Positions 6,097 through 38,606 of a stretch of DNA of 64,000 bases are shown piece after piece. Made by a program: the position numbers and the translations under genes. Location of the stretch: the NCBI GenBank assembly GCA_030145715.1, contig JAIXHQ010000002.1, positions 62,001-126,000 of the forward strand, written 5' to 3'. Origin of the DNA: Sphingopyxis sp. GTDB taxonomy: Bacteria; Pseudomonadota; Alphaproteobacteria; Sphingomonadales; Sphingomonadaceae. How positions within the stretch are numbered: the stretch's first letter is position 1; each line of letters opens with the position of its first letter. The notes under the pieces are model-generated. The model was not told the DNA's origin. It ran no database searches and saw only the letters and a program-made list of their open reading frames with translations.

Positions 6097-6098
6097 CT

Positions 6099-7655: not shown

Positions 7656-7718
7656 CTTATGGTCCTTTACACACATCGTCATTGCGACCGAAGCGCAGCC
7701 ATGACGGAAGATGATGGG

Positions 7719-10064: not shown

Positions 10065-10087
10065 GCCCTAGAGAGCCTCCATCCCAT

Positions 10088-10172
10088 CCCCGCTCGTGTC
10101 GAGCGAAGTCGAGACACCCCGATAGCCATCGCCCGGCCGATGGGCGTCTCGACTTCGCGCGATGCGAACGGG
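10088..10172. repeat. imperfect intergenic inverted repeat
   Basis: Two arms (10088-10120 and 10142-10172) are imperfect inverted copies sharing the core CGAAGTCGAGAC / GTCTCGACTTCG. They fill most of the gap between the HAD-PlsC gene and plsB. This core resembles dispersed palindromes of sphingomonad genomes (recollection, not checked). It could fold in the transcript and separate the two genes. Confidence 0.6.
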
Positions 10173-10186
10173 AAAGGGATTTGCGG

Positions 10187-18690: not shown

Positions 18691-18733
18691 GCGCAATTTC
18701 CTCTGGCGAACCGCGCGCGCCGCGGTCCGATCG

Positions 18734-20622: not shown

Positions 20623-20775
20623 GAACCTGATTCTTCTTTCCGATGTGGGTGTCGATGCCAGCCTAGGCCCCTCTTCCAGAGCAAAGCGCCGACTTGTCGC
20701 CGTCGGACACAAAACCCGCCATCATATCGCACCGGTCGCAGCAGAAAATGCCGCAACCGGTATGCGCGATACGGG

Positions 20776-23334: not shown

Positions 23335-23383
23335 GAAGGAAAACCTGTTCTGATGATTGCGGGCGACGCCAGCCCCGTCCTGT

Positions 23384-24241
23384 TCAACCCAGCGCCTGAT
23401 TTGCGAGCGAATAGACCTGAACATCCTTGTCCGCCGACGGCGGCGTGCCACGGCACATCCGCGTCACGCGCCCGACGCAGGGCAAGCCAAGTCCGTCGAG
23501 CCAAGCCGACAGGCCGCTTTCTTCCGGCACGTCGAGGCGGCAGAACATGCCAGGGTTCGACCCCAGCCAGTGGGTGATCAGCGCCCTGGCCCCGCCGCGA
23601 TCGGGCGCCACGACCGGCCCGATCGACAGGCCGCGACCAAAGCGCCGGAACAGGGCGTATCCAGCCTGTTCGCCGCTGCGATTGAGGACCACGCCCTGCG
23701 CGTAATCGCACAGATAAAGCACGACATCGCGGCGATCCATGCCGATCGCGCGCCGATCCAGCGCCGCGATCGTCTCTATCTCTCCCGCCTTCATCGGTGC
23801 GATGCGTTCGTCGGGAATCAGTTCGGCGATCGGAACCGCAAAGGCGGCGCCCTGATGCTGAAAGATCGTGCCGATCGTTTCGAAACCCATCGAACGATAC
23901 AGCGGCAGCCCCGCATCGGTGGCGTTGAGGAGGATCGACCGGTCGCCGATCGCGTCGAACGCCGCCTGCATCAGCCGCCGGCCCAGTCCCTTGCCCTGCT
24001 GCGAATTGGCGACGATGACCATGCCGACGACGGCATGATCGGCGCCATAGGTCCACCACATGGTTGTTCCCACGACATGCCCGTCACATTCCGCGACGAC
24101 GCCCTGCCCCAGTTCCAGCAGCCGAACCCAGTCGGCCTTGCGATGCGGCCATTGCTGCTCGCTCGACAGCTTGTGCGCCGACGGCAAATCCTGCGCCGTC
24201 ATCGCGCGCAGGGTTGAAACGCCGACTGCCCCCGTTGTCAT
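23384..24241 (-). CDS. GNAT N-acetyltransferase with C-terminal YitH-like domain
   Basis: A 285-aa acetyltransferase with a strong ribosome site (GGAGG, 7 bases before 24241). Residues about 8-140 form a GNAT fold, with the acetyl-CoA loop in VIVANSQQGKGLGRRLM. The remaining half (about 150-285) matches the second domain seen in YitH-type proteins. It is first in the minus-strand catabolic run and divergent from an aldehyde dehydrogenase gene. Acetylation of an amine intermediate would fit with the M20 deacylase at the end of the same run, but this link is only inference. Confidence 0.82.
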   Translation of the reverse strand: MTTGAVGVSTLRAMTAQDLPSAHKLSSEQQWPHRKADWVRLLELGQGVVAECDGHVVGTTMWWTYGADHAVVGMVIVANSQQGKGLGRRLMQAAFDAIGDRSILLNATDAGLPLYRSMGFETIGTIFQHQGAAFAVPIAELIPDERIAPMKAGEIETIAALDRRAIGMDRRDVVLYLCDYAQGVVLNRSGEQAGYALFRRFGRGLSIGPVVAPDRGGARALITHWLGSNPGMFCRLDVPEESGLSAWLDGLGLPCVGRVTRMCRGTPPSADKDVQVYSLANQALG

Positions 24242-24444: not shown

Positions 24445-25920
24445 ATGAACGGCTTCGATCCGGATCTCGTCACGGTCGGTCCCGCCAATAATTTCGTCGC
24501 GGGCCTGCGCCTGCACGGAACCGGCGACCATATGCAGGTGCTTCGCCCGTCCGACGGGCGGGTCTATGGCGACCTGGATTCCGCCCATGTCGATCAGGTG
24601 GACGAAGCGGTCACCAATGCATGGCAGGCCTATCGCAAAGGCGACTGGGCAAAGGCCGAGCCCCGGCATCGTATCAGCGTGATGCGGCGCTGGGCCGACC
24701 TGCTGGAATCCGACGCGGAGGCGCTGGCCCCGATCGAGGCGGCGGGATCGACGCGCCTGTTCAGCGAGATTTGCAGTTGGGATCTGGCCTATGCCGCCGA
24801 CTGCATCCGCTTTTTCGCCGAATTTGCCGACAAGACATCGGGCGAAACGGTGCCGACGACCCCGGACAAGATGGGGTTCACCCTGTTGGAACCCTATGGC
24901 GTGATCGCAGCGATCGCGCCGTGGAACCTGCCGCTCATCATGGCGATCTGGAAAATCGCGCCGGCGATCGCGGCGGGCAATTCGGTCGTGCTCAAGCCGT
25001 CGGAACTGACGCCGTTCAGCATCGTGCGCGTCGCCGAACTGGCGATCGGCGCGGGGCTGCCGCCGGGCGTCTTCAACATCGTTCAGGGCCATGGCGCCTC
25101 GGTCGGCGACCGGCTGTGCCGTCATCCCTTGGTCGCAAAGGTCAGCTTTACCGGATCGACCCAGACGGGGCGCGCGATCATGGCCGCCTGCGCCGCCGAA
25201 GGTCCCAAGCCGGTGACGCTGGAACTGGGCGGCAAGAGCGCGCAGCTTGTCTTTTCCGATGCGCCCGATCTGGCGCAGACCGCCGCGACGCTGGCGCGCG
25301 GCATCACCGTCAATTCGGGGCAGGTCTGTGTCGCGGGATCGCGCCTGCTGGCCCATGAAAAGGTCGCCGACGAACTGGTCGATCGTCTGTCGCAGGCCTT
25401 TTCGGCGCATCGCATCGGCGCGACATGGGACGAACAGACGACGATGGGCCCGATCATTTCGGAAAAGCAGGTCGGCCAGATCGATGCGATGGTGGGCCGC
25501 GCACTGGCGTCGGGCGGCAGCGCGGTGGTCGGCGGAGGCCGCGCCGCGGCGCCGCAGGACGGCAGCTATTTCTCACCCACGATCATCGCCGGGCTGGCGC
25601 CCGATGCGGAGGCGATCCGCGACGAGATTTTCGGGCCGGTGCTGACCGTCCAGACCTTTGCCGACGAGGAAGAGGCCTATTCGCTGGCGAACGACAGCAA
25701 ATATGGGCTGGCGGCGGGCGTCCATACCGGCGACCTGAGCCGCGCGCTGCGTGCGACCCGCGCGCTGGAAGCGGGAACGATCTGGGTCAACCGCTATGGC
25801 CGCAGCAATGATTATATCCTGCCGACCGGCGGTTACAAACAGTCGGGGATCGGCAAGGATCTGGGCCGCGAGGCCTATCTGGCCAGCCTGCGGTCCAAGG
25901 CCGCGCTGATCCAGCTTTGA
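24445..25920 (+). CDS. aldehyde dehydrogenase, NAD-dependent
   Basis: A 491-aa aldehyde dehydrogenase. GGAG is 6 bases before the ATG. It has IAPWNLPLIMAIWKIAPA, KPSELTPF, FTGSTQTGR, the base ELGGKSAQLVF and the catalytic Cys in NSGQVCVAGSR, with YKQSGIGKDLG near the end. It is a different branch from the GabD-like enzyme at 21871-23334 and resembles betaine/gamma-aminobutyraldehyde dehydrogenases (inference from motif style). It is the only plus-strand gene in this catabolic region, reads away from the GNAT gene across a shared promoter and converges on the opine-oxidase-like operon with a 13-base gap. Confidence 0.9.
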   Translation: MNGFDPDLVTVGPANNFVAGLRLHGTGDHMQVLRPSDGRVYGDLDSAHVDQVDEAVTNAWQAYRKGDWAKAEPRHRISVMRRWADLLESDAEALAPIEAAGSTRLFSEICSWDLAYAADCIRFFAEFADKTSGETVPTTPDKMGFTLLEPYGVIAAIAPWNLPLIMAIWKIAPAIAAGNSVVLKPSELTPFSIVRVAELAIGAGLPPGVFNIVQGHGASVGDRLCRHPLVAKVSFTGSTQTGRAIMAACAAEGPKPVTLELGGKSAQLVFSDAPDLAQTAATLARGITVNSGQVCVAGSRLLAHEKVADELVDRLSQAFSAHRIGATWDEQTTMGPIISEKQVGQIDAMVGRALASGGSAVVGGGRAAAPQDGSYFSPTIIAGLAPDAEAIRDEIFGPVLTVQTFADEEEAYSLANDSKYGLAAGVHTGDLSRALRATRALEAGTIWVNRYGRSNDYILPTGGYKQSGIGKDLGREAYLASLRSKAALIQL

Positions 25921-25933
25921 TCGAAAGGCCGGT

Positions 25934-27073
25934 TCAGCCCGCGCTGAACCGGTCGGCCCGATAGGGTGCAAGGTCGATGTCGGTGCGGCCCGTCGCGATC
26001 AGTTCGGCCATCGTGTCGCCGACGCCGGGGCCAAGCTGAAACCCCGCGCCGGCAAAGCCAAAGGCATAATAGAGGCCACTGGTGGTCATGCTGGGCCCCA
26101 TGACGGGCGCGCTGTCGGGCAGATAACCCTCGATCCCGCTCCATGTGCGGATGACGCTGACCCGGCCGACGGCGGGAATCAGCCGCTGAATCTGGCGCCA
26201 CAGGCTGAGGCTGTTTTCGGGTCGGACATCGACGCGATAGCGGTCGGGATAGCTGGGGTTATAGAAACTGCCCCCCATCACCAGATTGCCGCGCTCGACC
26301 TGACGGATATAGACCGATTCCTCGGTATCGGGCGTCACGACGCCGACCGAAGGCCGCAGGGCATAGGGCAGCGGTTCGGTCACGCACATGTTCGGGGCGC
26401 GCGAGGTGAGCGGCAGCGGTTCGCCGAACGCCGCCGCGAACCGGTCGCCCCATGCCCCCGCGGTAATCAGCAGTACGGGCGCGCGAAACTGGCGCCCATC
26501 CGCCGCCGCGACGACGAAATCATCGCCCATCTTGGCCGTTTCGGTGACGGCGCAGCGTTCGTGGACCATGGCGCCCAGCCGCTGCGCGGCGCGGGCGAAG
26601 GCGGGGGAAACCAGCCGCGGATTGGCATGGCCGCACAAGGGCGAATAGGACGCGGCCAGCACCTCTTCGCCCAGAAAGGGAAAGCGGGTGCGCAGCATGT
26701 TGCCCGACAGCATCTCAAGATCCAGATCGCTCTGCCGAGCGTCGGCGGCATATTGCTCCATCGTCGCGGCCAGTTCGGGCCGCGTCCGATAACATACGCG
26801 CATATGGCCGAACTGGCGATATTCGACGTCGCAATCGAGCAGCGCCTCTGCCTCACGCCATATCGCGATCGCGCGGTTGGCGAGGGCAAGCTGATAGAGG
26901 GGGCGCCCCTGTCGCCGGACATTGCCGAAATTGGTGCCGCTCGCCTGCCGTCCGATCAGGTCGCTTTCGAGCAACGTCACCGACAGCCCGCGCCGACGCA
27001 GGAAAAAGGCCGCAGAGCTGCCCATGATGCCGCCGCCGACGATGATCACGTCGCTGGATGCGGGGGCCGTCAT
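25934..27073 (-). CDS. FAD-dependent amine/amino-acid oxidoreductase, OoxB/HcnC-like subunit
   Basis: A 379-aa DAO-family flavoprotein. The N-terminal Rossmann motif is VIIVGGGIMGSSAAFFLRRRG, followed by FGNVRRQGR. The C-terminal half has WSGIEGYLPDSAPVMGPS and AFGFAGAGFQLGPGVG, as in glycine/sarcosine-oxidase-like enzymes. It would be the catalytic beta subunit of an opine oxidase, hydroxyproline dehydrogenase or hydrogen cyanide synthase-like complex, oxidising a secondary amine carbon. The ATG at 27073 overlaps the OoxA-like stop as ATGA. An in-frame ATG at 27082 is the alternative. It is the last gene of the nine-gene operon. Confidence 0.85.
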   Translation of the reverse strand: MTAPASSDVIIVGGGIMGSSAAFFLRRRGLSVTLLESDLIGRQASGTNFGNVRRQGRPLYQLALANRAIAIWREAEALLDCDVEYRQFGHMRVCYRTRPELAATMEQYAADARQSDLDLEMLSGNMLRTRFPFLGEEVLAASYSPLCGHANPRLVSPAFARAAQRLGAMVHERCAVTETAKMGDDFVVAAADGRQFRAPVLLITAGAWGDRFAAAFGEPLPLTSRAPNMCVTEPLPYALRPSVGVVTPDTEESVYIRQVERGNLVMGGSFYNPSYPDRYRVDVRPENSLSLWRQIQRLIPAVGRVSVIRTWSGIEGYLPDSAPVMGPSMTTSGLYYAFGFAGAGFQLGPGVGDTMAELIATGRTDIDLAPYRADRFSAG

Positions 27074-28449
27074 CGATCGCATCGCCCGGCCGAACCGATG
27101 GCGATGGGCTTGACGGGCGCCGCCGCGCGCAGGCGCCCGACCGCTTCAACTGGCGTCCCGACCGCGCCCGCGATCAGTTCGGCCGCCGCGAGGCCGCAAT
27201 AGCGCCCCTGGCATCGGCCCATGCCGATCCGGCTGAACGCCTTGGCCCGATTGGCCTCTTCCGCCCCGGTTTCCGCGATGGTGCGCCGCAGATCGCCCAC
27301 GGTGATGGCTTCGCAGCGGCAAAGGATCGTCGCATCGCCCAGAGCAGACGTCTGTTCGTGCGGCCAGGGATAGGCCCGCGCCAGCCCCTCGGCAAAGCGG
27401 CGGGCGCGGGCGACGGCTTGCCGCGCATCCTGCCGCGCGGTGTCCGACACGCGATAGCCGCGATCGGCCAGGATGGTCAGCGCCGCCAGTTCGCCCGCCG
27501 CCTCTGCCGCGACGGCACCTAGGATGCGCGCGCCATCCCCCGCCAGATAGACGCCGGGTTGCGACGATCGCCCGTCGGCATCGCGCACCGGCAGCCATTG
27601 GCGAACCATGGCGTCAAAGGCAAAGTCGCATCCGGCCAGTTCCGCAAGCTGCGTTTCGGGCCGCAGATGATGCCCCATCGCGGCGGCGTCGCAATCGATG
27701 GTCAGCGCATCGCCCCGGCTGGTCCGCACCGTCACGCCCGACACGCCGCGATCGGCATCGCCGTGGATTTCCACCGGCGTGATACCGCGATGAATGGGCA
27801 CGCCCGCGCGCCGCAGGTCGCGAAGCAGCCCAACGCCGACGCGCAATGTCGCGGGCTGAGCCAGCAGCCGGGGGAGCGCCGCGACCGAAGCGGACATCGA
27901 CGATGTGTCGAGCACCGCGGCGACCTCTGCACCCGCCTTCGCATATTGCGCCGCGACCAGATAGAGCAGCGGCCCCGACCCCATGAAGACCGTCCGCCGA
28001 CCGATCGCGCAGGCCTGTGCCTTCAGCGCGATCTGCGCGCCGCCAAGGCTGTAGCAACCGGCCCAATGCCATCCGCTGACCGGCATCAATCGATCGGTCG
28101 CGCCGGTACACAGCAACAGCGCATCGAACGGCAGTACCTGCTGGCCGTCCGGGCCCGCTGTAAAAATCCGCCGGTCCGATATGTTCCACGCCAGCGTTTG
28201 CGGCCGATAGTCGACATGGCCGTGCAGCGCGTCGAAACAATCATGAACCGCCTTCGCGCGGTCGGCCTCGCTGCCGTAAAGATCGGTATAGGATCGCGTG
28301 AAGCCGTCGGGCTGACGCCGATAGATCTGACCGCCCGCGCGCATCGCTTCGTCGATCACGACGGGGCGGACCCCCGCCGCGACCAGCGCGGCCGCCGCCC
28401 GGACACCGGCCGGACCGGCGCCGATGATCGCTACGACCGGGTCGGCCAT
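27070..28449 (-). CDS. FAD/NAD(P)-binding oxidoreductase, OoxA/HcnB-like subunit
   Basis: A 459-aa flavoprotein. It starts MADPVVAIIGAGPAGVRAAAAL (FAD site), has a second dinucleotide site near RRTVFMGSGPLLYLVA and ends in a BFD-like [2Fe-2S] domain, with CRCEAIT followed by GRCQGRYCG supplying four cysteines. This layout matches OoxA of opine oxidases, HcnB and the alpha subunit of D-hydroxyproline dehydrogenases, which pass electrons from the DAO-type subunit. Its start lies 19 bases inside the small [2Fe-2S] gene and its stop overlaps the OoxB-like gene, so all three subunits are coupled. The physiological acceptor cannot be deduced. Confidence 0.87.
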   Translation of the reverse strand: MADPVVAIIGAGPAGVRAAAALVAAGVRPVVIDEAMRAGGQIYRRQPDGFTRSYTDLYGSEADRAKAVHDCFDALHGHVDYRPQTLAWNISDRRIFTAGPDGQQVLPFDALLLCTGATDRLMPVSGWHWAGCYSLGGAQIALKAQACAIGRRTVFMGSGPLLYLVAAQYAKAGAEVAAVLDTSSMSASVAALPRLLAQPATLRVGVGLLRDLRRAGVPIHRGITPVEIHGDADRGVSGVTVRTSRGDALTIDCDAAAMGHHLRPETQLAELAGCDFAFDAMVRQWLPVRDADGRSSQPGVYLAGDGARILGAVAAEAAGELAALTILADRGYRVSDTARQDARQAVARARRFAEGLARAYPWPHEQTSALGDATILCRCEAITVGDLRRTIAETGAEEANRAKAFSRIGMGRCQGRYCGLAAAELIAGAVGTPVEAVGRLRAAAPVKPIAIGSAGRCDR

Positions 28450-28739
28450 GCGGTTGCGGGCTGCCGGGTGGACAGGCGGGCGCCATCGACGGCGGGGGTC
28501 GAACAGGCGCGCACCCGATCGCCCTCTTCGGTCCATATCCAGCAATCCTGACAGGCGCCCATCAGGCAAAAGCCCGCCCGCGCCTCGCCGCCAAATTCGG
28601 ACCGACGGAGCGACCGATTTGCGATGAGCATCGCGGTCATCAGCGTATCACCGGCAAGCGCGGCCGCCGGAATGCCATCGACGAACAGCGTGATCGGCGA
28701 CCGGCCCGCCTCCGCCACGCGCACGAACCGCCCGCTCAC
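28431..28739 (-). CDS. small [2Fe-2S] subunit, OoxX/HcnA-like
   Basis: A 102-aa ferredoxin-like protein of the Fer2_4 type. An N-terminal beta region (ITLFVDGIPAAALAGDTLMTAML) leads to the cluster loop GFCLMGACQDCWIW with a fourth Cys in VRACSTP. Small subunits of this kind accompany opine oxidases, hydroxyproline dehydrogenases and HcnABC. The GTG at 28739 overlaps the ABC ATPase stop as GTGA, and the 3' end overlaps the OoxA-like gene by 19 bases. Loss of this gene would be expected to break electron transfer in the complex (inference). Confidence 0.87.
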   Translation of the reverse strand: MSGRFVRVAEAGRSPITLFVDGIPAAALAGDTLMTAMLIANRSLRRSEFGGEARAGFCLMGACQDCWIWTEEGDRVRACSTPAVDGARLSTRQPATAWPTRS

Positions 28740-30574
28740 GCGGCGCCCATGTTGCCGCGCGCAAAGGGCAACAGCTTTTCATCGGCGAAATGACAGAGAA
28801 TCTCATTGCCGGTGGGCAGGCGGTGCCGCGGCGGGAAACTGGCGTCGCAGAGGCCCGCGACGCGGGTGTCGCACCGCGCCAGAAAGGGACAAAGATCGGC
28901 CGCGTTTCCACTTTCATCCACCGGCGGGAGCGGCGGCGCCGACCCGGCATCGGGCAGCCAGCCGATCCGCAATTCGGGCACCGACGACACCAGCAACCTT
29001 GTGTAGGGATGATGCAGCGCCTCTGCGAACGTATCGCGCGGCCCCTGTTCGACGGCATGGCCGTGATACAGCACCAGAATATCGTCGCAGATCGCCCGCA
29101 CGGTCGAAATATCGTGGCTGATGAATATCATGCCGATGCCCAGATCGCGCCGAAGGTCGGCGAGCAGGTCGAGGATCGCCGCCCCCACCACCGTATCGAG
29201 CGCCGATGTCACCTCGTCGCACAGGATGATGTCGGGATTGGCGGCGAGCGCGCGGGCCAGGTTCACGCGCTGTTTCTGCCCGCCCGACAATTCGGTGCAG
29301 CGCCGGTCGCCGATCGTCGCGGGCAGCCGGATCAGGTCGAGCAGTTCGGCGATGCGTGCGTCCGCCGCCGCCCCGCGCAGCCCGTGATAAAAGGCGAGCG
29401 GGCGTTTCAATATCTGCCGCACGCTCTGCGCCGGGTTCAACGCGACGTCGGCGTTCTGGAACACGATCTGGACGCGGCGAAAATCGTCGCGCGTCCGTCC
29501 CTTCAGGCCCGGCGGCAGCGGTGCGCCATCCAGCAGCACCTGACCGCGCGCGGGCGGCAGCAGGCCCGAAATCGCGCGCGCCAGCGTCGATTTTCCCGAT
29601 CCCGATTCGCCGATAACGCCCAGCGTCTGGCCGCGTTGCAGCGACAGCGAGACGTCGCGAAGCACCGGGATCGCGGGATGGCCCGCCGCGTCGATCCGGC
29701 CATAGCCCGCGGTCACGCCGCGCACCTCCAGCAGCGGGACATCCGCCGCCGGGCCGCGTTCGGGCACGGACGGCGCGGGATGCGCCGCCGCCATCAGGGT
29801 GCGGGTATAATCCTGTTCGGGCGCCTCGATCATCCGGGCCGCCCTGCCCGCTTCGACGATATGCCCCTGTTGCAGGACAAGGATATGATCCGCCATCTGT
29901 GCGACGACGGCCAGGTCGTGACTGACATAGATGGCGGTCGTGCCGCGCCGCCGGACGACGTTGCGGAATGCCTGTAGCACGCCGATCTGTGTCGTGACGT
30001 CGAGCGCGGTGGTCGGTTCGTCGAGGATGATGAGGTCGGGGTCCGACATCAGCGCCATCGCGGCCATCAACCGCTGCAACTGGCCGCCGGAAAATTGATG
30101 CGGATATTTGCGTCCGATGCTTTCGGGGCGCGGCAGGCCCAGTTCGCCGAACAGGCCGACGGCCTTGGCCTCTGCCTCCGCCCGCGACATCAGGCCGTGG
30201 ACGAGCGCGGCCTCGATCGCCTGATCCATGATCGTGCGCGCGGGGTTGAACGCCGCCGCCGCGCTTTGCGCGACATAGCAGATGCGGTTGCCGCGCAGCG
30301 CGCGCAGGTCCGCCGCGCCCAGCGACGCCAGATCGACGTCGCCGACGCGGATGCTGCCGCCCGTGATCGCCGCACCATTGCGGGCGTGGCCCAGCATCGC
30401 GAGCGCGATCGTCGTCTTGCCCGACCCCGATTCACCGATCAGCGCCAGCACCTCGCCCCGCGCCAGCGAAAAGTCGATGTCGCTGACGATGTCGAAATCG
30501 CTGCCGTCGGGACGCCGCGCCGATACGCGCAGGCCCGATACCGCGACATAAGGATTGGCGGATGCGTCGGCCAT
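28736..30574 (-). CDS. fused dipeptide/oligopeptide ABC transporter ATPase (DppD-DppF type)
   Basis: One 612-aa protein with two ABC domains. Domain 1 (about 10-260) has Walker A GESGSGKTT (48-56), signature FSGGQLQR and Walker B LIILDEPTTALD. Domain 2 (about 290-540) has GESGSGKST, LSGGQKQR and IILCDEVTSALD. The C-terminal LCPFLARCD with a nearby Cys is the oligopeptide-family cysteine tail. In domain 2 the usual DEP is DEV. It powers import by the two permeases and the lipoprotein encoded upstream. The start ATG at 30574 overlaps the permease stop by one base. A 289-residue in-frame upstream extension lies antisense-like within the permease gene and was discarded. Confidence 0.92.
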   Translation of the reverse strand: MADASANPYVAVSGLRVSARRPDGSDFDIVSDIDFSLARGEVLALIGESGSGKTTIALAMLGHARNGAAITGGSIRVGDVDLASLGAADLRALRGNRICYVAQSAAAAFNPARTIMDQAIEAALVHGLMSRAEAEAKAVGLFGELGLPRPESIGRKYPHQFSGGQLQRLMAAMALMSDPDLIILDEPTTALDVTTQIGVLQAFRNVVRRRGTTAIYVSHDLAVVAQMADHILVLQQGHIVEAGRAARMIEAPEQDYTRTLMAAAHPAPSVPERGPAADVPLLEVRGVTAGYGRIDAAGHPAIPVLRDVSLSLQRGQTLGVIGESGSGKSTLARAISGLLPPARGQVLLDGAPLPPGLKGRTRDDFRRVQIVFQNADVALNPAQSVRQILKRPLAFYHGLRGAAADARIAELLDLIRLPATIGDRRCTELSGGQKQRVNLARALAANPDIILCDEVTSALDTVVGAAILDLLADLRRDLGIGMIFISHDISTVRAICDDILVLYHGHAVEQGPRDTFAEALHHPYTRLLVSSVPELRIGWLPDAGSAPPLPPVDESGNAADLCPFLARCDTRVAGLCDASFPPRHRLPTGNEILCHFADEKLLPFARGNMGAA

Positions 30575-31401
30575 TATCGACGCCCCGCGCGCGGCAGCGC
30601 GTCGATGAGCAGGTTCACGCCGACGGTCAGCGTGGCGATGGCCAGCGCGGGCATCAATATGGCTGGGGCGCCTTCGACAATTCCCGATATATTCTCTCGC
30701 ACCAGCGAACCGAGGTCGGCCGCCGGCGGCTGAACCCCCAGGCCCAGGAAACTGAGCGCCGACAGCAGCAGGACGATGAAGACGAAGCGAAGGCCGAAAT
30801 CGGCCAGCAGCGGGTGGATCATGTTGGGCAGAATTTCGAACAGCGCGATATGTGTCGCGCGTTCGCCGCGCGCCCGCGCCGCGACGACGAAATCGGTCTG
30901 GTTGAGGTTGACCGCAAGCGCGCGCGCGATGCGATAATTGCCGGGCACATAGGTAAAGGCGGCGATCACCATCAGCAGCAGGAGCGACGATCCGAAGGCC
31001 GCGATCAGCACGAGCGCGAGAATCTTTGACGGGATCGACAGCAGCGTGTCCATGAAGCGCGACAGCAGTTCGTCGGTCCAGCGGCTGCCGAGCGCGGCGA
31101 CCAGCGCCAGCCCGGTGCCGACCATGCAGGCGGCGATGGCGGCGCTGGCGCCAAGCCCGACCGTGTAGCGCGCGCCCGACAACAGACGGCTGAGCACGTC
31201 GCGGCCCAGATAATCGCTGCCGAGCGGAAAGCGGCTGGAATAGCCACCGAACACGTCGCGATCGACAAAGGCGCCGACCGGATGCGGCGCGAGCATCGGG
31301 CCGACCAGCGCGACGACGCCCCAAAAGAGGACAAGGCCAAGCCCGATACGGCCCGACAGCGAAAGACCGCGCAGCGATCGAAGAAAGCGTCCGACGCTCA
31401 T
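30574..31401 (-). CDS. ABC transporter permease, DppC type
   Basis: Inner-membrane permease of 275 aa with about six hydrophobic segments, the first at residues 18-38 (GLGLVLFWGVVALVGPMLAP). It carries the DppC/OppC N-terminal pattern with PLGSDYLGRDVLSRLLSGAR, and the EAA-like loop ARARGERATHIALFEILPN facing the ATPase. Its ATG at 31401 overlaps the stop of the DppB-type gene as ATGA. Peptide-type transporters carry di- and oligopeptides, nickel complexes, opines and glycosides, so the family alone does not fix the substrate. Confidence 0.92.
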   Translation of the reverse strand: MSVGRFLRSLRGLSLSGRIGLGLVLFWGVVALVGPMLAPHPVGAFVDRDVFGGYSSRFPLGSDYLGRDVLSRLLSGARYTVGLGASAAIAACMVGTGLALVAALGSRWTDELLSRFMDTLLSIPSKILALVLIAAFGSSLLLLMVIAAFTYVPGNYRIARALAVNLNQTDFVVAARARGERATHIALFEILPNMIHPLLADFGLRFVFIVLLLSALSFLGLGVQPPAADLGSLVRENISGIVEGAPAILMPALAIATLTVGVNLLIDALPRAGRR

Positions 31402-32384
31402 TGGTTGCGAAGCCTTGGGTTGGCGAGAATGGCGGCGACATCGGCGATCAGCATGAGCGCGAGATAGACGGCGCAAAAAATCATGGCGCAGGCCTGTAGC
31501 AGCGGCATGTCGCGGCTGGTCACGGCATTGACCATCAGGCTGGCCAGCCCCGGATAGTTGAAGATCGTCTCCACGATGATCGCGCCGCCCAACAGATAGG
31601 ACAGGCTGAGCGCAATCGCGTTGAAGATCGGTCCGACGCTGTTCGGCAGGACATGGGTGATGATGATCCGCCGCGCCGAAAATCCCTTGAGGACCGCCAT
31701 TTCGACATAGGGCCGGTCGAGCTGGTCGATGATCGCGGCGCGCGTCATCCGCGCCATCTGCGCCATCACGACCACGGCCAGCGCGGCGACGGGCATCGCC
31801 AGCGCCTTCAGCAATTCGGCGACCCCCGCCTCTTCGGGCACCAGCGCGATCGAGGGCAGCCATTGCAACTGCACCGAAAAGACCAGAACGGCGAGCGTGG
31901 CGACCAGAAATTCGGGCAGCGCGACCATCGACAGGGTGACGATGTTCAGCGCGCGATCGAGGCGGCCGTCGCGGTTCATCGCGCTGGCGATGCCGATGCC
32001 CAGCGCCAGCGGCACGGCGACCAGCGTCGTCAGGGCGGCAAGCAACAGCGAATTGGGCAGCCGTTCGCTGATGATGTCGCCGACCGGCATGTTGGCCACC
32101 AGCGACTGACCGGCGTCGCCGCCGACCATGCCCCAGGCCCAGGTTGCGAACCGTTCATAGGCGGGCCGGTCGAGCCCCATTTCCTGCCGCAGCGCGGCGA
32201 TCTGTTCGGCGGTCGCGCTCTGCCCCAATGCTTCCTGCGCGGCATCGCCGGGCAGCAGGCTGCTGATCACGAAGACGACCAGCGCGACCAGGATCAGCGT
32301 CACGAAAGACGCGCCGATCCGGCCAAGGATCATCAGCGCAAGGCGGCGCCCGCCATTGTTGGGCGCATCCGGGGAAGCCGCCAT
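31398..32384 (-). CDS. ABC transporter permease, DppB type
   Basis: Inner-membrane permease of 328 aa. The first membrane segment (about residues 20-42) is followed by the DppB-type periplasmic region with LPGDAAQEALG and MGLDRPAYERF. The coupling loop is VLKGFSARRIIITHVLPN. Its start at 32384 has a GGAGG ribosome site lying within the last codons of the substrate-binding-protein gene, only 4 bases before which that gene stops. This supports the chosen start over the frame's earlier ATG at 32423. Confidence 0.92.
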   Translation of the reverse strand: MAASPDAPNNGGRRLALMILGRIGASFVTLILVALVVFVISSLLPGDAAQEALGQSATAEQIAALRQEMGLDRPAYERFATWAWGMVGGDAGQSLVANMPVGDIISERLPNSLLLAALTTLVAVPLALGIGIASAMNRDGRLDRALNIVTLSMVALPEFLVATLAVLVFSVQLQWLPSIALVPEEAGVAELLKALAMPVAALAVVVMAQMARMTRAAIIDQLDRPYVEMAVLKGFSARRIIITHVLPNSVGPIFNAIALSLSYLLGGAIIVETIFNYPGLASLMVNAVTSRDMPLLQACAMIFCAVYLALMLIADVAAILANPRLRNQ

Positions 32385-32388
32385 CGCG

Positions 32389-33951
32389 TTAATCCTCCCA
32401 CCACAGATGTTCGGCAAAGGCATAGCCCATGAACCCGCCCAACGGCACCGGATACCATCCCTTCAGCCGCCGGTCATAACCGTCGATAAGGCTGATGAAC
32501 ACCGGAATGCCGATGCCGCTATGGTCCCTGACCAGCCCCTGCATCTCGCCATATAATTGCTTGCGCCGCGCCTCGTCACCCTCGCCCCGCGCTTCGACCA
32601 GCAGGCGGTCGAAAGCCGGATTGCGCCAGCCCGATTCATTCCACGCGGCGCCGGATTCAAAGAACAGGCTGAACACCAGATCGGCCGTGGGGCGCGGATT
32701 GACCGACCCGAAACCGATCGGATGCTTCATCCAGTGCGTCGACCAATAGCCGTCGGCCGGCACGCGATTGACCGCGAAATTCAACCCGACGCGCGCGCCA
32801 TATTCCTGAAACACCGACGCCATGTCGACCGATCCCTCGGCGGCGGGGGTCGCATAGATGGGCAAGGGTGTGCGGCCGATGTCGGTGCGCCGCAGATGCC
32901 AGCGCGCCCGGTCCAGATCGAGCGTCGTCTGGGGCAGGTCGGCGCGGTAATAGGGATGAAAGGGCGGGATCGGATGATCGTTGCCGACCGTGGCGAAATC
33001 GCGGAACAGCGCCCGCTTGATCAGTTCGCGATCGGTCAGATATTTCATCGCCGCGACGAAATCGGGGTTGGACCCCGGAAAGCGGTCCACCCGCATCACC
33101 AGGTCGGTGTAAAGTCCCGACGGTGTTTCACGCACGACATGGCCGGGCGATGCCGCGATCCGGCCGGTCGAGCGCGGGTTGACCGACAGCGCCATGTGGA
33201 CGTCGCCGGCCAGCAGCGCGTTCACCCGGCTGACCTCGTCCGCGATGCCGATCAGTTCAATCTCTTCCAGATGCGGTTTGCCCGGTTTGAAATAGGCGGT
33301 GTTCTTGCGCGCGAGCGTGCGGACGCCGGGGGTAAAGGAAACCAGCCGATAGGGGCCGGTCCCGTTGCCGCTGGCAAATCGCGTCTCGCCATCGGGCACG
33401 ATGCCGAAATGCGACTGCGACAGGATGATCGGAAGGTCGGCGTTGGCCCCGGCGAGTTCGATGACCAGATTCAGCGGCCCGTCGGCACGCACCGCGACAA
33501 ATTGTTCCGCGATGCCCGCGACCTTTGACCCGGTCAGCGGCTGTTTGTGGCGCAGCAGCGAATAGGCAACGTCGGCGGCGGTGAGCGATTTGCCGTCGTG
33601 AAAGGTCACGCCGCTGCGCAGCCGGACGTGCCAGACGCGCTGATCCTCGCTGACGATGCTTTCCGCCAGATTGGGAAGCGGCCTCTGGTTGCGGTCCAGT
33701 TCGGTCAGGCAACTGTACAGCATGTAATGACGCACATAGTCGCTCGACAGCGCGGCCTTTGCCGGATCGAGCGTGTCCGCCGTCGACAGCGACATGCAGG
33801 CGGCGCGCACCCGGCCGCTGCTGTTGGCGCCGCCGCTGCGCGCGGCCGGTCCGCATCCGGCGAGCAACAGCGAACCCGCGCCGGCCGCGACCCCTCCCCC
33901 CAACGCCGTTTCCAGCAATCTGCGCCTTGAAATGGAACCGGCGTCGGACAT
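32389..33951 (-). CDS. peptide-type solute-binding lipoprotein (SBP family 5)
   Basis: Substrate-recognition component of the ABC importer, 520 aa. The N-terminus has a twin-arginine pattern (SRRRLLE, Arg9-11) before a hydrophobic stretch and lipobox LLAGC (Cys33), so it is probably exported folded by Tat and lipid-anchored in the periplasm. The mature part has family-5 features: TLDPAKAALS, TFHDGKSLTAADVAYSL, SGNGTGPYRLVSF and a late WNESGWRNPAFDRLL. The ATG at 33951 overlaps the upstream oxidoreductase stop by one base. A Tat-lipoprotein binding protein is a less common arrangement for this family. Confidence 0.92.
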   Translation of the reverse strand: MSDAGSISRRRLLETALGGGVAAGAGSLLLAGCGPAARSGGANSSGRVRAACMSLSTADTLDPAKAALSSDYVRHYMLYSCLTELDRNQRPLPNLAESIVSEDQRVWHVRLRSGVTFHDGKSLTAADVAYSLLRHKQPLTGSKVAGIAEQFVAVRADGPLNLVIELAGANADLPIILSQSHFGIVPDGETRFASGNGTGPYRLVSFTPGVRTLARKNTAYFKPGKPHLEEIELIGIADEVSRVNALLAGDVHMALSVNPRSTGRIAASPGHVVRETPSGLYTDLVMRVDRFPGSNPDFVAAMKYLTDRELIKRALFRDFATVGNDHPIPPFHPYYRADLPQTTLDLDRARWHLRRTDIGRTPLPIYATPAAEGSVDMASVFQEYGARVGLNFAVNRVPADGYWSTHWMKHPIGFGSVNPRPTADLVFSLFFESGAAWNESGWRNPAFDRLLVEARGEGDEARRKQLYGEMQGLVRDHSGIGIPVFISLIDGYDRRLKGWYPVPLGGFMGYAFAEHLWWED

Positions 33952-35237
33952 CAGTAGAGCTTGTCCTGAATCTTGTACCAGGCGCCCACCATCGGCAGGA
34001 ACCACGGTTTGCCCATATGGCCCGGGATCGCGGGCCACGGCATGTCGGCCCAGGGATTGGCGCTGAGGTCGCCGCCCATATAACGCGCCATATTCTGACC
34101 CATATGGACCGACATCTGCACCCCGTGACCGCTATAGGCCATGGCATAGAACAGGCCGTCCTGTTCGCCCGCGCGCGGCAGCCGGTCGGCGGTCAGGTCG
34201 ATCATGCCGCCCCAGATATGATCGACGCGGACGGCGTCCAATTGCGGGAACATCCGCCGCATCGCGGATGTCAGGATGACGCCGCTTTTGCGGTCCGATT
34301 TGCTGTCCGACAACGCGAAGCGCGCCCGGCCGCCGAATATCAGGCGATCGTCGGCGGTCAGGCGGAAGAAATTGCCGATGATACGGCTGGTGACATAATT
34401 GCGCCGCGTCGGGAAAAGCTCGTCGATCAGTGCGGGCGCCAGCGGTTCGGTCGCGATCACGAAACTGCCGACGGCGACCATGCGCCGCTGGAACCAGCGG
34501 AACGGACGCTGCGGCGCGGCGCCGCCGGTGGCGACCAGAACCTGCTTGGCGCGAACCTGACCGCGCGCGGTCGTTACCAGCCAGCGGCCATCGGGCGTGC
34601 GCGCCAGATCCTCGACCGCCGCCTGTTCGAAAATATGCGCGCCGTTGGCGGCGGCGGCGTTGGCAAGCGCGATGCCAAAGCGTCCGACATGCATCTGCGC
34701 GCTGGTGGTCTGAAGCAGACCGCCGTGAAATTCGCTGGACCGCACCTCGGTCGTGATCCGGTCGGGGGTGATCAGTTCGACGTTCGAATCCACCTCTGCC
34801 TTCAACAGGGCATAGGCCTTTTCGATCTTGGCGAAATGTTCCGGTTTCGCCGCGATCTTCAGCCGCCCACAGCGGCGGAAATCGCAGTCGATGTCATATT
34901 TGCGGATCGTCGCCTCGATCGTATCGACCGCGTCGACATAGGCCCGGTAATAGGCCTGCGCCCTGTCGCGGCCGATCTGGGCGACAAGGGCGCCATAATC
35001 CTGATGCGTGCCGTTGTTGCACTGACCGCCGTTGCGTCCCGACGCCTCACCGACGACCTCGCCCGCTTCGAACAGCGCGACCGACGCGCCGCGCTCGCGA
35101 AGGGCAAGCGCGGCGGACAGCCCGGTGAACCCGCCGCCGACAATGGCGACATCATAATCGCCCTCCGGCGCATCGACGATCCCCCCGGTAAAGGGCGGCG
35201 CCGATGCGAGCCAATAGGATTGCGGGCTGGGTTGCAT
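33951..35237 (-). CDS. FAD-dependent oxidoreductase, PuuB/OrdL-like
   Basis: A 428-aa DAO-fold flavoprotein resembling gamma-glutamylputrescine oxidoreductase. The N-terminus MQPSPQSYWLASA matches the SYY/WxAS opening of the family. FAD binding is in YDVAIVGGGFTGLSAALAL and the next segment GEASGRNGGQCNNG, and the C-terminus has YSGHGVQMSVHMGQ. It probably oxidises a secondary or N-substituted amine, releasing an aldehyde. There is no PuuA synthetase nearby, so the classical Puu route is not complete here. The ATG at 35237 was chosen; a TTG at 35261 overlapping the HAD stop as TTGA is an alternative. Confidence 0.83.
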   Translation of the reverse strand: MQPSPQSYWLASAPPFTGGIVDAPEGDYDVAIVGGGFTGLSAALALRERGASVALFEAGEVVGEASGRNGGQCNNGTHQDYGALVAQIGRDRAQAYYRAYVDAVDTIEATIRKYDIDCDFRRCGRLKIAAKPEHFAKIEKAYALLKAEVDSNVELITPDRITTEVRSSEFHGGLLQTTSAQMHVGRFGIALANAAAANGAHIFEQAAVEDLARTPDGRWLVTTARGQVRAKQVLVATGGAAPQRPFRWFQRRMVAVGSFVIATEPLAPALIDELFPTRRNYVTSRIIGNFFRLTADDRLIFGGRARFALSDSKSDRKSGVILTSAMRRMFPQLDAVRVDHIWGGMIDLTADRLPRAGEQDGLFYAMAYSGHGVQMSVHMGQNMARYMGGDLSANPWADMPWPAIPGHMGKPWFLPMVGAWYKIQDKLY

Positions 35238-35257
35238 GGCCGGGCGGTCGGGTTTCG

Positions 35258-35926
35258 TCAAAGGCCGACGACGGCGGGGAGACAGCCGATGTGCGGGATT
35301 TCGATGTCCCGGTAGTTGGCGTTCGACGGTTCGTGCGCGCGATTGATGAACACGCGGCAGCCAAAGCGCAGGTCGCTGGCCGTGTTGTGGTCGTAGCGGA
35401 AGCTGGACGACACATGCATCATTTCTTCCGGGCCGCAGCCGAGCTGGTCGAACATATATTCGAAAGCCTGCATCCGCGGCTTGTACGCCTGCGCCGATTC
35501 AGCGGTGTACACGCGGTGGAACGGGGCGCCCAGCTTGTCGACGTTCGACTGGATCTGGCTGTTCATCGCGTTCGACAGGATGACGAGCGGAATCTTGTCC
35601 GCGATCTGCGACAGGCCGCCGGGCACGTCGGCATGCGGACCCCAGGTCGGCACCGCGTCATAGACCGCCTGCCCTTCGCTCTCGTCAAAGGCGATGCCCC
35701 ATTTGGCGCAGGCGCGCGACAGCGAATTGACGATGACGTCGCGATAGGGCTTCCACGGGCCAAGCACTTCGTCGAGACGATAGCGCGCCCAATCGGTCAG
35801 AAAGGCATCCATCCGCTCTGCCGGGACCTGATCCTTGTAAAATTCCTGTGCCATTTCCGACATCTGGAAACGCGTCAGCGTACCGTAACAATCGAAGCTG
35901 ATATATTTCGGGCGAAAACTGGTCAT
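35258..35926 (-). CDS. haloacid dehalogenase-like hydrolase (type II HAD)
   Basis: A 222-aa HAD-superfamily hydrolase. Motif I is ISFDCYGTLTRF, the Asp nucleophile; motif II Ser is in VILSNAM; motif III Lys is in AQAYKPRMQAFEY; the acidic motif IV is replaced by SFRYDHNTASDL. It aligns with the L-2-haloacid dehalogenase branch, but the usual Arg/Trp substrate segment near residue 45 reads WARYRLDEVLG, so dehalogenation is not assured. It is the promoter-proximal gene of the nine-gene operon. A phosphatase or a C-N/C-X bond hydrolase acting on the imported compound is possible. Confidence 0.82.
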   Translation of the reverse strand: MTSFRPKYISFDCYGTLTRFQMSEMAQEFYKDQVPAERMDAFLTDWARYRLDEVLGPWKPYRDVIVNSLSRACAKWGIAFDESEGQAVYDAVPTWGPHADVPGGLSQIADKIPLVILSNAMNSQIQSNVDKLGAPFHRVYTAESAQAYKPRMQAFEYMFDQLGCGPEEMMHVSSSFRYDHNTASDLRFGCRVFINRAHEPSNANYRDIEIPHIGCLPAVVGL

Positions 35927-36440: not shown

Positions 36441-38606
36441 TTAGAACCGATAGGTCGCGCGGACCGTGAAGCGCCGCGGCGCGCCGGGATAGGTCCACAG
36501 GGCGGAATAGGAGTTGGCAAACCAACGCTTGTCGAACAGATTTTCGACATTGCCGCTGATCCGCAGGCTTTCCGTGACGTCGACCGAAGCCATCAACCGG
36601 ACGAGCGTGACGGCCGGCAGGAAGTAATCGGTGGCCGTTTCGCCAAGCCGCTTGCCGATATATTGCACGCCGCCGCCGATCATCGCCGACTTGCCGCCAC
36701 CGATGTCGAAATCCTTGGTCAGCATCACGTTGCCGCTGTGTTTCGCCACGTTGATGAGCGGATCGCCCGGCAGGATCGCGTTGCCGAAATCGGCGTCGAG
36801 GACGCTCGACGTCGAAAAGGCATCGACATAGGAATAGGCCAGCATCAGGTTGAAATCATACGGAAGCTTGGCATTCACATCGACTTCGACGCCGCGGCTC
36901 TTGGCCGCGCCCACCGCGATGACATAGCCCGAACGTTCCGGATTGGGATCGGCCGTCAGGATGTTGGTCTTGGTCATCGTGAACAGCGCCAGCGACGCCG
37001 TCAACCGGTTGCCAGGCAGGGCATATTTCGCGCCGACCTCATAGGATTCCGACTTTTCCGGGGCAAAGGCGTTGCCGAAGAAATCCTGACCCGTGTTGGG
37101 GCGGAAACCGCGACCGAAGCTGCCATAGAAGGACAGGGTATCGGTCGGCTGGATCACCAGGCCCGCCTGCGGGCTGAAGGCGGACACATTCTGCCCGCTG
37201 GTCCCCAGCGTCGTGCGATCGAAGATCGTCTGACGGAATTCGTCATACCGTCCGCCAACGCGAACCTTCAGCCATTCGGTGAGGTCGATCTGGTCATAGA
37301 AATAGGCGCCCCAGCTTTTCGCGACCTCGTCCTGGTCAAACACGGTCGAACCAAAGGCATTGGGCAGCGGATAGGCGCCATAGACCGGATTGAGGACGTT
37401 GATTCCGTTGATCTGTTCCAGCGTCATGCCCGGCACATAGACGGGCGGACGAAAGCGCGTCTGGAGCCGATCAAGGTCCATATAGTCATAATCGACGCCG
37501 ACGACGAGCGTGTTCGAAAGACCGCCCACATTGAAGTGCCCGGTCAGTTCGGCCCGCGCGATCAGGCTTTGCGACCGGCTGTCTTCAAAACGCCGTTGAC
37601 GCGACAGGGTCGTGCCGTCGGTGAAGAAGGGCTGGCGGCTCGCGACCAGTTCGGGATATTCGCCGGTGCCACGCAGACGCGTCTCGCGATAGGACGCCCC
37701 GACCAGCAGGCTCCAGTCGTCCGAAAAATCGTGCTGGAACTGGACCTGGTTGCCCCAGACGTTGATCTTGATCGGGCCATCGCCGGGTTCACCCAGAAAG
37801 CGGGAGACAGGAAGCCGGTCAAAGTCTTTGTTGAAGATCGGCGTGCCGCGATCGAAGGGAATTTCCTGCGACGAAAATTCCATTTCATAGGAAATGCTCG
37901 TGCGGTCGCTGATCTGCCACAAGACCGACGGGGTCACGAAAAATTTCTGGGTGCGGATGGTGTCGCGATAGCTGCCCGCATCGTCATATGCGGCGTTGAT
38001 GCGAAAGGCGAGCTCGTCCGAAACCGGGGTTGTATAATCCGCCTCGCCGCGAAAGGATTTCCAGCTCCCACCCTGAAGAAGGATATAACCTTCCGGCCGG
38101 AACTCGGGCTTTTTGGTGACGATGTTCACCGTGCCGCCGGGTTCGCCGCGACCGAAGAGAGCCGAGGTCGGGCCCTTCAGAACATCGACTCGTTCGACGC
38201 TGGAGGTATCGCGCGGGCCGCCAAAGCCGCGGGCGCCGTTGAAGCCGTTGACCAGAAAGCCCGACGGCAGACCGGCGACGTCGCCGGAAAAGCCGCGGAT
38301 CGCATAGCTGTCCCAAAGACCGCCGAAATTGTTGAGGTGCGAGACGCCGCTGACCAGATTGAGCGCGCCGTTAAGCTGGGTGATCGCCGCCATGTCGAGC
38401 GTCTCGGTCGTCAGCGATTGAACATTCTGCGGAATGTCCTGAACCGGGAAGTCACCGATATAGGCCTGGCGCTGCCCGACGACGACGATCGTGCTGTCGC
38501 CGGCATCGGAATCATCTGCATCCTGAGCAAATGAGGGAGAAGAAAGCAGGAGGGAGGCGAGAGAAACGCCTTTCATCAGTCGAATGAACGTACGGTCATT
38601 ATTCAT
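36441..38606 (-). CDS. TonB-dependent siderophore-type receptor
   Basis: A 721-aa outer-membrane receptor. It has a signal peptide ending SPSFAQ (about residue 28) and a TonB-box-like DSTIVVVGQRQ. The plug domain has RGFSGDVAGLPSGFLVNGFNG, VERVDVLKGPTSALFGRGEPGG and GTVNIVTKKP, the TonB-siderophore signature. A 22-strand-type barrel follows, ending in the aromatic TYRF typical of barrel insertion. It would import a ferric or metal chelate using TonB energy. The start at 38606 follows AAAGGGGAC. It is separated from the ABC operon by the MITE and is divergent from a bicupin. The ligand is unknown. Confidence 0.93.
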   Translation of the reverse strand: MNNDRTFIRLMKGVSLASLLLSSPSFAQDADDSDAGDSTIVVVGQRQAYIGDFPVQDIPQNVQSLTTETLDMAAITQLNGALNLVSGVSHLNNFGGLWDSYAIRGFSGDVAGLPSGFLVNGFNGARGFGGPRDTSSVERVDVLKGPTSALFGRGEPGGTVNIVTKKPEFRPEGYILLQGGSWKSFRGEADYTTPVSDELAFRINAAYDDAGSYRDTIRTQKFFVTPSVLWQISDRTSISYEMEFSSQEIPFDRGTPIFNKDFDRLPVSRFLGEPGDGPIKINVWGNQVQFQHDFSDDWSLLVGASYRETRLRGTGEYPELVASRQPFFTDGTTLSRQRRFEDSRSQSLIARAELTGHFNVGGLSNTLVVGVDYDYMDLDRLQTRFRPPVYVPGMTLEQINGINVLNPVYGAYPLPNAFGSTVFDQDEVAKSWGAYFYDQIDLTEWLKVRVGGRYDEFRQTIFDRTTLGTSGQNVSAFSPQAGLVIQPTDTLSFYGSFGRGFRPNTGQDFFGNAFAPEKSESYEVGAKYALPGNRLTASLALFTMTKTNILTADPNPERSGYVIAVGAAKSRGVEVDVNAKLPYDFNLMLAYSYVDAFSTSSVLDADFGNAILPGDPLINVAKHSGNVMLTKDFDIGGGKSAMIGGGVQYIGKRLGETATDYFLPAVTLVRLMASVDVTESLRISGNVENLFDKRWFANSYSALWTYPGAPRRFTVRATYRF

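Follow-up and report, generated by a model that had tools for sequence, protein, structure and literature searches.

Introduction

The L-azetidine-2-carboxylate hydrolase of Pseudomonas A2C was reportedly described by Gross et al. in 2008. According to a portion of PMC8016842, a Pseudomonas enzyme, described there as periplasmic, forms 2-hydroxy-4-aminobutyrate from azetidine-2-carboxylate and the product is then transaminated; in Aspergillus, the use of azetidine-2-carboxylate needs AzhA, a HAD protein, and a 4-aminobutyrate (GABA) transaminase, and the GNAT protein NgnA assists detoxification. Nicotianamine is azetidine-2-carboxylate whose nitrogen bears a chain with a further secondary amine, i.e. 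it has two N-substituted centres. A part of PMC10341464 describes it as an azetidine ring with two aminobutyrate units, names Fe3+, Cu2+ and Ni2+ as the ions it binds best, in the stability order Fe3+ > Cu2+ > Ni2+, and states that it is needed for nitrogen fixation in the nodules of Medicago truncatula. Phytosiderophore analogues are under development as iron fertilisers and soil microbes degrade mugineic acids, as stated in a section of PMC7946895. No description of bacterial genes for nicotianamine or mugineic-acid catabolism was found in the Creative Commons-licensed literature, searched mostly as titles and abstract openings, with one query limited to 2024 onward and another dominated by general biodegradation papers. 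Here we analyse a nine-gene operon for uptake and oxidation, and the island around it, in a window of 64,000 nucleotides from Sphingopyxis sp. (assembly GCA_030145715.1, contig JAIXHQ010000002.1, positions 62,001 to 126,000), to which the coordinates below refer.

We propose, with a probability of about 0.45, that this island imports and degrades nicotianamine or a close plant chelator (mugineic-acid phytosiderophores, N-substituted azetidine-2-carboxylates). An N-substituted azetidine chelator is favoured because of the importer, the siderophore receptor and the two amine oxidases of the island and the copper, HupE/UreJ and DUF4198 genes found beside it in sphingomonads. The island is a real and conserved catabolic unit, and plausibly an undescribed one.

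Materials and Methods

The window genome is a draft metagenome-assembled genome (MAG) of 2.83 Mb in 89 contigs, 88% complete, and the window lies on a contig of 191,618 bases. The synteny set comprised 39 loci, namely the window, L003, L004, 14 of 399 plasmid records, 9 genomes of a class sample and 13 of an order sample. The plasmid records were picked by hand from two listings, the class and order genomes were all other HAD-positive ones, and L004 had no HAD match, which left 38 HAD-bearing loci. Partner genes were counted in 28 non-redundant loci with HAD and importer: L033, G182, G355, G107, G380, G096, G071 and G604 were set aside for lack of a 40% importer match (contig ends truncate G355, G071 and G604), and the near duplicates L003 (of the window) and L015 (of L037) were dropped. 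A Massilia locus, L113, was located later via the oxidoreductase FADox1 and enters only the 40-locus count of metal genes, for which 35 control windows of 20 kb were drawn from 13 genomes, of which 10 belong to the order sample and 3 to the class sample. The identity thresholds for synteny were chosen by the authors and the compared loci differ in length. The Fisher test on the second oxidase treats loci as independent, though related loci are not.

Results

Organisation of the operon and the island

All nine translationally coupled genes claimed by the first-pass annotation could be recovered on the minus strand, from 35926 to 25934, in the families proposed there, as judged from the sequence and from family scans. 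The limits of the unit had been set at 25934..35926; the nine genes stand, but the unit continues past both ends, and the operon is the core of a larger conserved island of about 21 kb, from about 17.5 to 38.6 kb of the window. Its genes are the following.

36441..38606, minus strand: TonB-dependent siderophore-type receptor, 721 aa (TIGR01783 325 bits, over cut-off; Plug and barrel domains)
35258..35926, minus strand: HAD type II hydrolase (TIGR01428 164 bits, over cut-off)
33951..35261, minus strand: FAD-dependent amine oxidoreductase FADox1 (DAO 229 bits)
32389..33951, minus strand: family 5 solute-binding protein with twin-arginine signal and lipobox (SBP_bac_5 190 bits)
31398..32384, minus strand: inner-membrane permease, DppB/NikB type, permease B (BPD_transp_1 118 bits)
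30574..31401, minus strand: inner-membrane permease, DppC/NikC type, permease C (BPD_transp_1 89 bits)
28736..30574, minus strand: fused dual ATPase, DppD-DppF type, 612 aa (two ABC_tran stretches and oligo_HPY)
28431..28739, minus strand: [2Fe-2S] small subunit of an Oox-type dehydrogenase (Fer2_4 81 bits)
27070..28449, minus strand: OoxA-like subunit (pyridine nucleotide-disulphide fold, BFD [2Fe-2S] domain, sarcosine oxidase A3 domain)
25934..27073, minus strand: OoxB-like catalytic DAO subunit (DAO 236 bits; soxB 124 bits, below the cut-off of 529)
24445..25920, plus strand: aldehyde dehydrogenase, convergent with the operon (Aldedh 505 bits)
23384..24241, minus strand: two-domain GNAT acetyltransferase (domain scan)
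21871..23331, minus strand: succinate-semialdehyde-type dehydrogenase, SSADH (TIGR01780 665 bits, over cut-off; start set by eye, range used in the search 21871-23451)
20776..21858, minus strand: tartrate/D-malate dehydrogenase (TIGR02089 547 bits, over cut-off; best PDB match 3flk, 506 bits)
19240..20625, minus strand: class III aminotransferase (NF004625 835 bits, over cut-off; no function is assigned to this family)
18734..19225, minus strand: Lrp/AsnC-type regulator (family scan)
17518..18696, minus strand: M20 amidohydrolase/deacetylase (TIGR01891 348 bits, over cut-off; DoeB2 331 of 550 bits)

The junctions bear out the claimed overlaps of 1, 4 or 19 bases and gaps of 20 bases or less. 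Overlaps of 4 bases join the HAD to FADox1 (with a TTG start; the alternative ATG at 35237 would leave a 20-base gap), permease B to permease C, the dual ATPase to the [2Fe-2S] subunit (GTG start) and the OoxA-like to the OoxB-like subunit. FADox1 and the binding protein, as well as permease C and the ATPase, overlap by 1 base, a 4-base gap separates the binding protein from permease B, and the [2Fe-2S] and OoxA-like genes overlap by 19 bases. The 901-, 549- and 499-aa frames in the list of open reading frames run too far upstream of the true genes. Read from the overlaps alone, the genes appear to be translationally coupled. Scanning 25000-39000 for consensus sites yielded 8 promoter-like sites, where 3.1 were expected, and 6 terminator-like ones, where 10.4 were expected. 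On the minus strand, promoter-like sites were placed upstream of the receptor and one past the operon end, and none within or just before the nine genes.

The contiguous order from the HAD through FADox1, the importer and the [2Fe-2S] subunit to OoxB recurs in 9 of the 38 HAD-bearing loci (the window, L003, L014, G271, G175, G503, G718, G602 and G735), thus the arrangement is not due to chance. In L003, a MAG labelled Sphingopyxis, the nine proteins are 82-96% identical to those of the window, and the 19-base overlap is kept in Sphingobium RAC03 (L014). The aldehyde dehydrogenase has the same place and orientation in L003, G175, G503, G718, G602 and G735. The last three reproduce the full gene order of the window between the TonB receptor and M20, including the aldehyde dehydrogenase on the other strand, and additionally carry GhrA and PepSY genes. 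In Novosphingobium pentaromativorans US6-1 the HAD and importer adjoin the GNAT, SSADH, tartrate dehydrogenase, class III aminotransferase, Lrp and M20 genes; the aminotransferase and Lrp genes between 18696 and 20776 on the minus strand were predicted from this synteny beforehand and then found.

The M20, GNAT, class III aminotransferase, SSADH and Lrp genes could together act as in ectoine breakdown, and a 2,4-diaminobutyrate or ectoine-type pathway was considered on this ground. The M20 protein reaches 331 bits to DoeB2, and Lrp, OCD and threonine dehydratase genes, which are reminiscent of ectoine loci, lie near some of the clusters. Against this, the annotated neighbourhood tables examined name neither an ectoine hydrolase nor an importer for ectoine, and neither the HAD nor the D-malate-type dehydrogenase has a place in such a pathway, which makes it very unlikely. 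DoeA was named neither in the annotated neighbourhoods nor among the window genes scanned, a separate DoeA homology search not having been made. The GNAT gave weak general matches in the PDB, and Mpr1 was not named among the 13.

Distribution and partner genes

The island is accessory. A HAD match was obtained in 14 of 396 order genomes (E <= 1e-60) and in 10 of 385 class genomes (E <= 1e-40), the window genome included in both cases, and in none of the 18 other genomes of the same genus among those listed (order sample, E <= 1e-60). In the class sample the conserved importer adjoins the HAD in 4 of the 10 HAD genomes (the window genome, G271, G175 and G051). In tblastn searches the HAD matched 399 plasmid records, among them 148 from Rhizobium and 76 from Sinorhizobium, and 207 of the records match at 60-80% identity. 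Since, among the matches covering 80% of the query in a spread listing of 60 records, the identity drops from at least 50% straight to at most 33%, the HAD clade is well separated.

Versions of the island occur in alpha-, beta- and gamma-proteobacteria, many of them plant- and soil-living. Annotated or tblastn-mapped neighbourhoods were seen in Sinorhizobium meliloti (pSymA), Rhizobium etli, R. tumorigenes, Mesorhizobium, Chelatococcus, Ponticoccus, Novosphingobium and Sphingobium, and further in Paraburkholderia, Burkholderia cepacia from onion, Klebsiella, Serratia and Massilia. The partner genes in the 28 importer loci are FADox1-type (26), GNAT (25), SSADH (25), GhrA-type reductase (25), tartrate dehydrogenase (21), aminotransferase (20), Lrp (20), M20/ArgE (18) and TonB receptor (16); a receptor homologue was found in 18 of all 39 loci. 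In Klebsiella and Serratia (L030, L035) the island is on enterobacterial plasmids, and a GabT-type aminotransferase replaces the usual one. In the rhizobial and Chelatococcus loci L016, L032, L034, L036 and L037 a second HAD-IA hydrolase lies directly by the binding protein. The annotated table of the Massilia locus shows permeases without an adjoining binding protein.

Two amine-oxidising systems

The first-pass annotation had called FADox1 PuuB-like. This holds as far as the DAO fold is concerned, not beyond it: the best curated model is the L-pipecolate oxidase AmaA (188 of 600 bits), no PuuB model is among the matches listed (25 of 58 NCBIfam), and no gamma-glutamylputrescine synthetase was found among the island genes scanned. 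The [2Fe-2S], Pyr_redox/BFD/A3 and DAO subunits are encoded together, as in three-subunit enzymes of the Oox/Hcn/Sox type.

The 26 importer loci with a FADox1-type gene all carry a second oxidase as well, which supports the claim of one import-and-oxidation unit with two separate amine-oxidising systems. The pairing had been regarded as unusual; it is not specific to the window, since OoxA homologues occur in 12 of the 39 loci, the window included. In most relatives a single-chain FAD oxidase, FADox2, stands in place of the Oox enzyme: the second oxidase of the 28 loci is FADox2 only in 15, OoxABX only in 10 and both in 1 (Paraburkholderia), with neither in 2 (Fisher p = 5e-5). Because the two almost exclude each other, FADox2 and Oox are read as two enzymes for one job and FADox1 as the enzyme for another.

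An Oox-type three-subunit enzyme beside DAO oxidases would also suit an N-carboxyalkyl amino acid, opine-like or otherwise, that lacks the azetidine ring and is imported and cut by the two oxidases, the HAD hydrolysing another intermediate. The agropine- and agrocinopine-type binding proteins AgaA and AccA are among the 56 PDB matches of the binding protein, although not the best, and the island is on plasmids of plant-associated bacteria. However, this reading gives no role to a HAD accompanied by GNAT in 25, SSADH in 25, tartrate dehydrogenase in 21 and aminotransferase in 20 of the 28 loci, and we hold it to be rather unlikely. The earlier suggestion of a substrate with two N-substituted centres is thus retained in that more than one such centre is supported; opines, named there as examples, are possible but less likely, because the HAD, the aminotransferase, the semialdehyde and tartrate/D-malate dehydrogenases and the siderophore receptor suit an azetidine chelator better.

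The HAD hydrolase

HAD type II enzymes act through an Asp ester, whose formation displaces the leaving group from C2 and inverts this centre. The window protein has this fold with its Asp nucleophile and catalytic Lys (TIGR01428 over cut-off), and Asp12, Asn119, Lys149 and Asp179 are near-invariant in the alignment of 36 orthologues. Among the 32 PDB sequences matched, the 8hp5 group comes first (93 to 89 bits), followed by the sequence of 3smv (66 bits; its variant 8yvw, 64 bits), which bears both the name (S)-2-haloacid dehalogenase and the name L-azetidine-2-carboxylate hydrolase; below it are deposited epoxide hydrolases (up to 46 bits) and the next haloacid dehalogenase (39 bits). As 3smv ranks behind the 8hp5 group and ahead of the other dehalogenases, sequence alone does not decide the substrate of the HAD. 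The structural models of the HAD (2 sequences) and of the binding protein (3 sequences) had a mean predicted local distance difference test score (pLDDT) of 52 and 35, respectively, too poor for a fold search. With moderate confidence, an azetidine-type ring opening is the best reading of this enzyme.

A GNAT gene lies by the HAD in G107, G380 and G096. The HAD-GntR-GNAT-FAD oxidase units of G107 and G380, in which the regulator and the oxidase were named by eye, suggest a smaller module without importer. In L048, L051 and L052 the HAD orthologue is found by a GntR-like regulator and a GNAT, the conserved importer being absent, and a FAD oxidase was seen by eye in L048 and L051.

The HAD and GNAT without conserved importer in G107, G096 and G380, like AzhA and NgnA in a portion of PMC8016842, would be expected if free L-azetidine-2-carboxylate were assimilated and detoxified, with importer and oxidases acting on other plant amino acids, unrelated or derived. 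However, a free C4 amino acid would call for neither a binding protein of 520 aa nor a siderophore receptor nor two oxidases; both kinds of oxidase are present in 26 of 28 importer loci, and G107 and G380 also have, by eye, a FAD oxidase beside the GNAT. We regard this possibility as quite unlikely.

Importer and receptor

The twin-arginine pattern is present in all 29 binding-protein orthologues aligned and the lipobox pattern in 6 of them. The binding protein, 520 aa long, remains far below the curated equivalog cut-offs (NikA-type 91 of 600 bits, CntA 25 of 800 bits). The ATPase exceeds the NikD and NikE cut-offs and is just under that of CntD, both fused domains adding to the score. The PDB matches of the receptor (pyochelin, ferrichrome, FoxA/CntO-labelled and others) were also inspected for a ligand, and no single one is indicated.

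Metal-related genes

In 12 of the 14 order-sample HAD genomes homologues of CopB/C/D, multicopper oxidase, HupE/UreJ or DUF4198 lie within 20 kb of the HAD. Within 10 kb the same set was found in 8 of the 14 as against 0 of 35 control windows (Fisher p = 7e-6). Of the 40 loci, 9 have PepSY_TM genes by the receptor and GhrA, and of the 35 controls none. Similar metal genes adjoin the Massilia island. In L018, L085, L113 and L013, CopB, CopC, CopD, multicopper oxidase, HupE/UreJ, DUF4198 and CusA-type genes are in or beside the island.

Other features of the window

An argininosuccinate-lyase-like gene (39786-41354) raised the question of an aminopolycarboxylate, such as ethylenediamine-N,N'-disuccinate (EDDS) or an aspergillomarasmine-type chelator, with the lyase as first enzyme of its degradation. 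The best PDB match of the protein is 6g3d (236 bits; variant 6rx8, 235 bits), deposited as argininosuccinate lyase, which we take to be EDDS lyase; the next argininosuccinate lyase follows at 188 bits, and a better argH (561 bits) is present elsewhere in the genome, across the left end of the window. The gene is nevertheless found in only 2 of 39 loci, the window and its close relative L003, and the HAD route would be left unexplained. It was therefore dropped as a pathway member, and degradation of such a chelator appears highly improbable.

A bicupin (EutQ-like) gene at 38934-39758 is divergent from the receptor, and cupins occur in 19 of 39 loci. Between the TonB receptor and the HAD, at 36085-36349, there is an element of about 270 bases resembling a miniature inverted-repeat transposable element, with 32-nt inverted ends that are 97% complementary. 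Seven more copies of nearly the same sequence occur in the genome, of which five have roughly the full length and two are partial, one of the latter lying at the start of a contig. In the window the element occupies the position where G503 and other relatives carry GhrA. A run of lipid genes at 4627-11743 was recognised by eye (patatin-like, wax-ester-synthase-like, glycerol-phosphate-acyltransferase-like and a HAD-acyltransferase fusion).

Discussion

From the observed genes, their families, order and conservation we infer a substrate, an order of cuts, a stereochemistry and a set of reactions as follows. The TonB receptor would take the metal complex across the outer membrane, the twin-arginine-exported binding protein would bind it and the Dpp/Nik-type ABC importer would bring it into the cell. 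FADox1 (first N-C bond) and the Oox-type dehydrogenase (second) would each cut one N-substituted centre. This would release C4 amino- or hydroxy-semialdehydes, as substrates for oxidation by the aldehyde dehydrogenases, and in the end azetidine-2-carboxylate. The HAD would open the azetidine ring, or an N-substituted azetidine, with inversion, to the D/R form of 4-amino-2-hydroxybutyrate. Transamination by the class III enzyme would then yield malate semialdehyde, which the SSADH-type enzyme would oxidise to D-malate; from this, pyruvate would be formed by the tartrate/D-malate dehydrogenase. Tartrate dehydrogenases accept D-malate. We reason that an inverting HAD would lead through (R)-4-amino-2-hydroxybutyrate to D-malate, which, unlike L-malate, would need a dedicated D-malate-type dehydrogenase. 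The GhrA protein of relatives, a member of the D-2-hydroxyacid dehydrogenase family, may route the other C4 units to D-malate as well, and the GNAT and M20 proteins probably serve for the protection and deprotection of an amine or for azetidine-2-carboxylate detoxification. Tentatively, the island may thus be the first gene set for bacterial nicotianamine or mugineic-acid catabolism, in which the three C4 units would all be channelled to D-malate and pyruvate.

Several observations weigh against this model. As regards the HAD, its top-scoring PDB group (8hp5) bears the deposited name (S)-2-haloacid dehalogenase, and the azetidine hydrolase that has been characterised is related to it only distantly, at 66 bits. 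Close to the last catalytic Asp, the motif of the clade is S-[FL]-R-Y-D, as against S-L-Y-H-D in 3smv. By eye, no obvious signal sequence was seen on the window HAD, unlike what would be expected for the Pseudomonas enzyme, described as periplasmic. A dehalogenase-like role of the HAD, conceivable from the 8hp5 match, was set aside solely on the ground that its partners are amine enzymes. G107 and G096 carry the HAD without conserved importer or transaminase. The tartrate dehydrogenase is not in the compared DNA of the Klebsiella, Serratia and B. cepacia versions, and the aminotransferase is just 29% identical in the first two. GhrA is absent from the window and has no close homologue in its genome (best 29% identity, in a MAG 88% complete). 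The cupin, OCD and second rhizobial HAD genes are left unexplained by the azetidine/chelator scheme. G566 and G526 have the importer and neither kind of oxidase in the compared DNA; since the oxidases of US6-1, a gene-order relative of G566, are 16 and 28 kb from the HAD, these two loci may be incomplete rather than exceptions.

As regards the metal genes, no homologue of the copper, HupE/UreJ or DUF4198 genes was found in the window, nor was any located in the vicinity of the HAD in the other 9 loci of the class sample. The CusA-type matches, with 4 among 40 loci and 2 among 35 controls, are not discriminating, and co-location on plasmids may explain the copper genes, at least partly. Finally, the azetidine-free proline analogue proline-2'-deoxymugineic acid (PDMA) is also biodegradable, as stated in a section of PMC7946895.

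If the proposal of a nicotianamine-type substrate is true, the question which microbes and enzymes destroy plant chelators becomes testable by knockouts of named genes, and a clade of genes annotated as 'haloacid dehalogenase type II' would receive a function. Rhizobia, sphingomonads and others could live on the metal carrier of the plant and perhaps strip metal from it, and the pSymA island of S. meliloti would touch the metal supply of the nodule.

Compared with known systems, the island shares with ectoine degradation (Doe/Eut) the M20 deacetylase, class III aminotransferase, SSADH/aldehyde dehydrogenase and Lrp-type regulator; it differs in its HAD, amine oxidases and D-malate-type dehydrogenase, and no ectoine hydrolase is named in it. 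As in Dpp/Nik/Cnt importers, a family 5 binding protein is combined with two permeases and two ATP-binding domains, but the window system has a twin-arginine signal, a fused ATPase and a link to catabolic enzymes. The DAO catalytic, pyridine-nucleotide-disulphide/BFD/A3 and [2Fe-2S] subunits resemble those of octopine/nopaline oxidase (OoxAB) and of three-subunit dehydrogenases of the HcnABC/SoxAB type; the window subunits nevertheless miss the curated cut-offs (soxA 59 of 1164 bits, soxB 124 of 529 bits), and in 15 of 28 importer loci the enzyme is replaced by a single-chain FAD oxidase. The azetidine-2-carboxylate assimilation of Pseudomonas A2C and of Aspergillus (AzhA/NgnA), as outlined in a portion of PMC8016842, has a HAD hydrolase, a GNAT and a GABA-type transamination in common with the island. 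The window HAD is set apart by its 66 bits to 3smv and by its other motif near the last catalytic Asp, and the island adds a dedicated transaminase, an SSADH, a D-malate-type dehydrogenase, an importer, a receptor and two oxidases.

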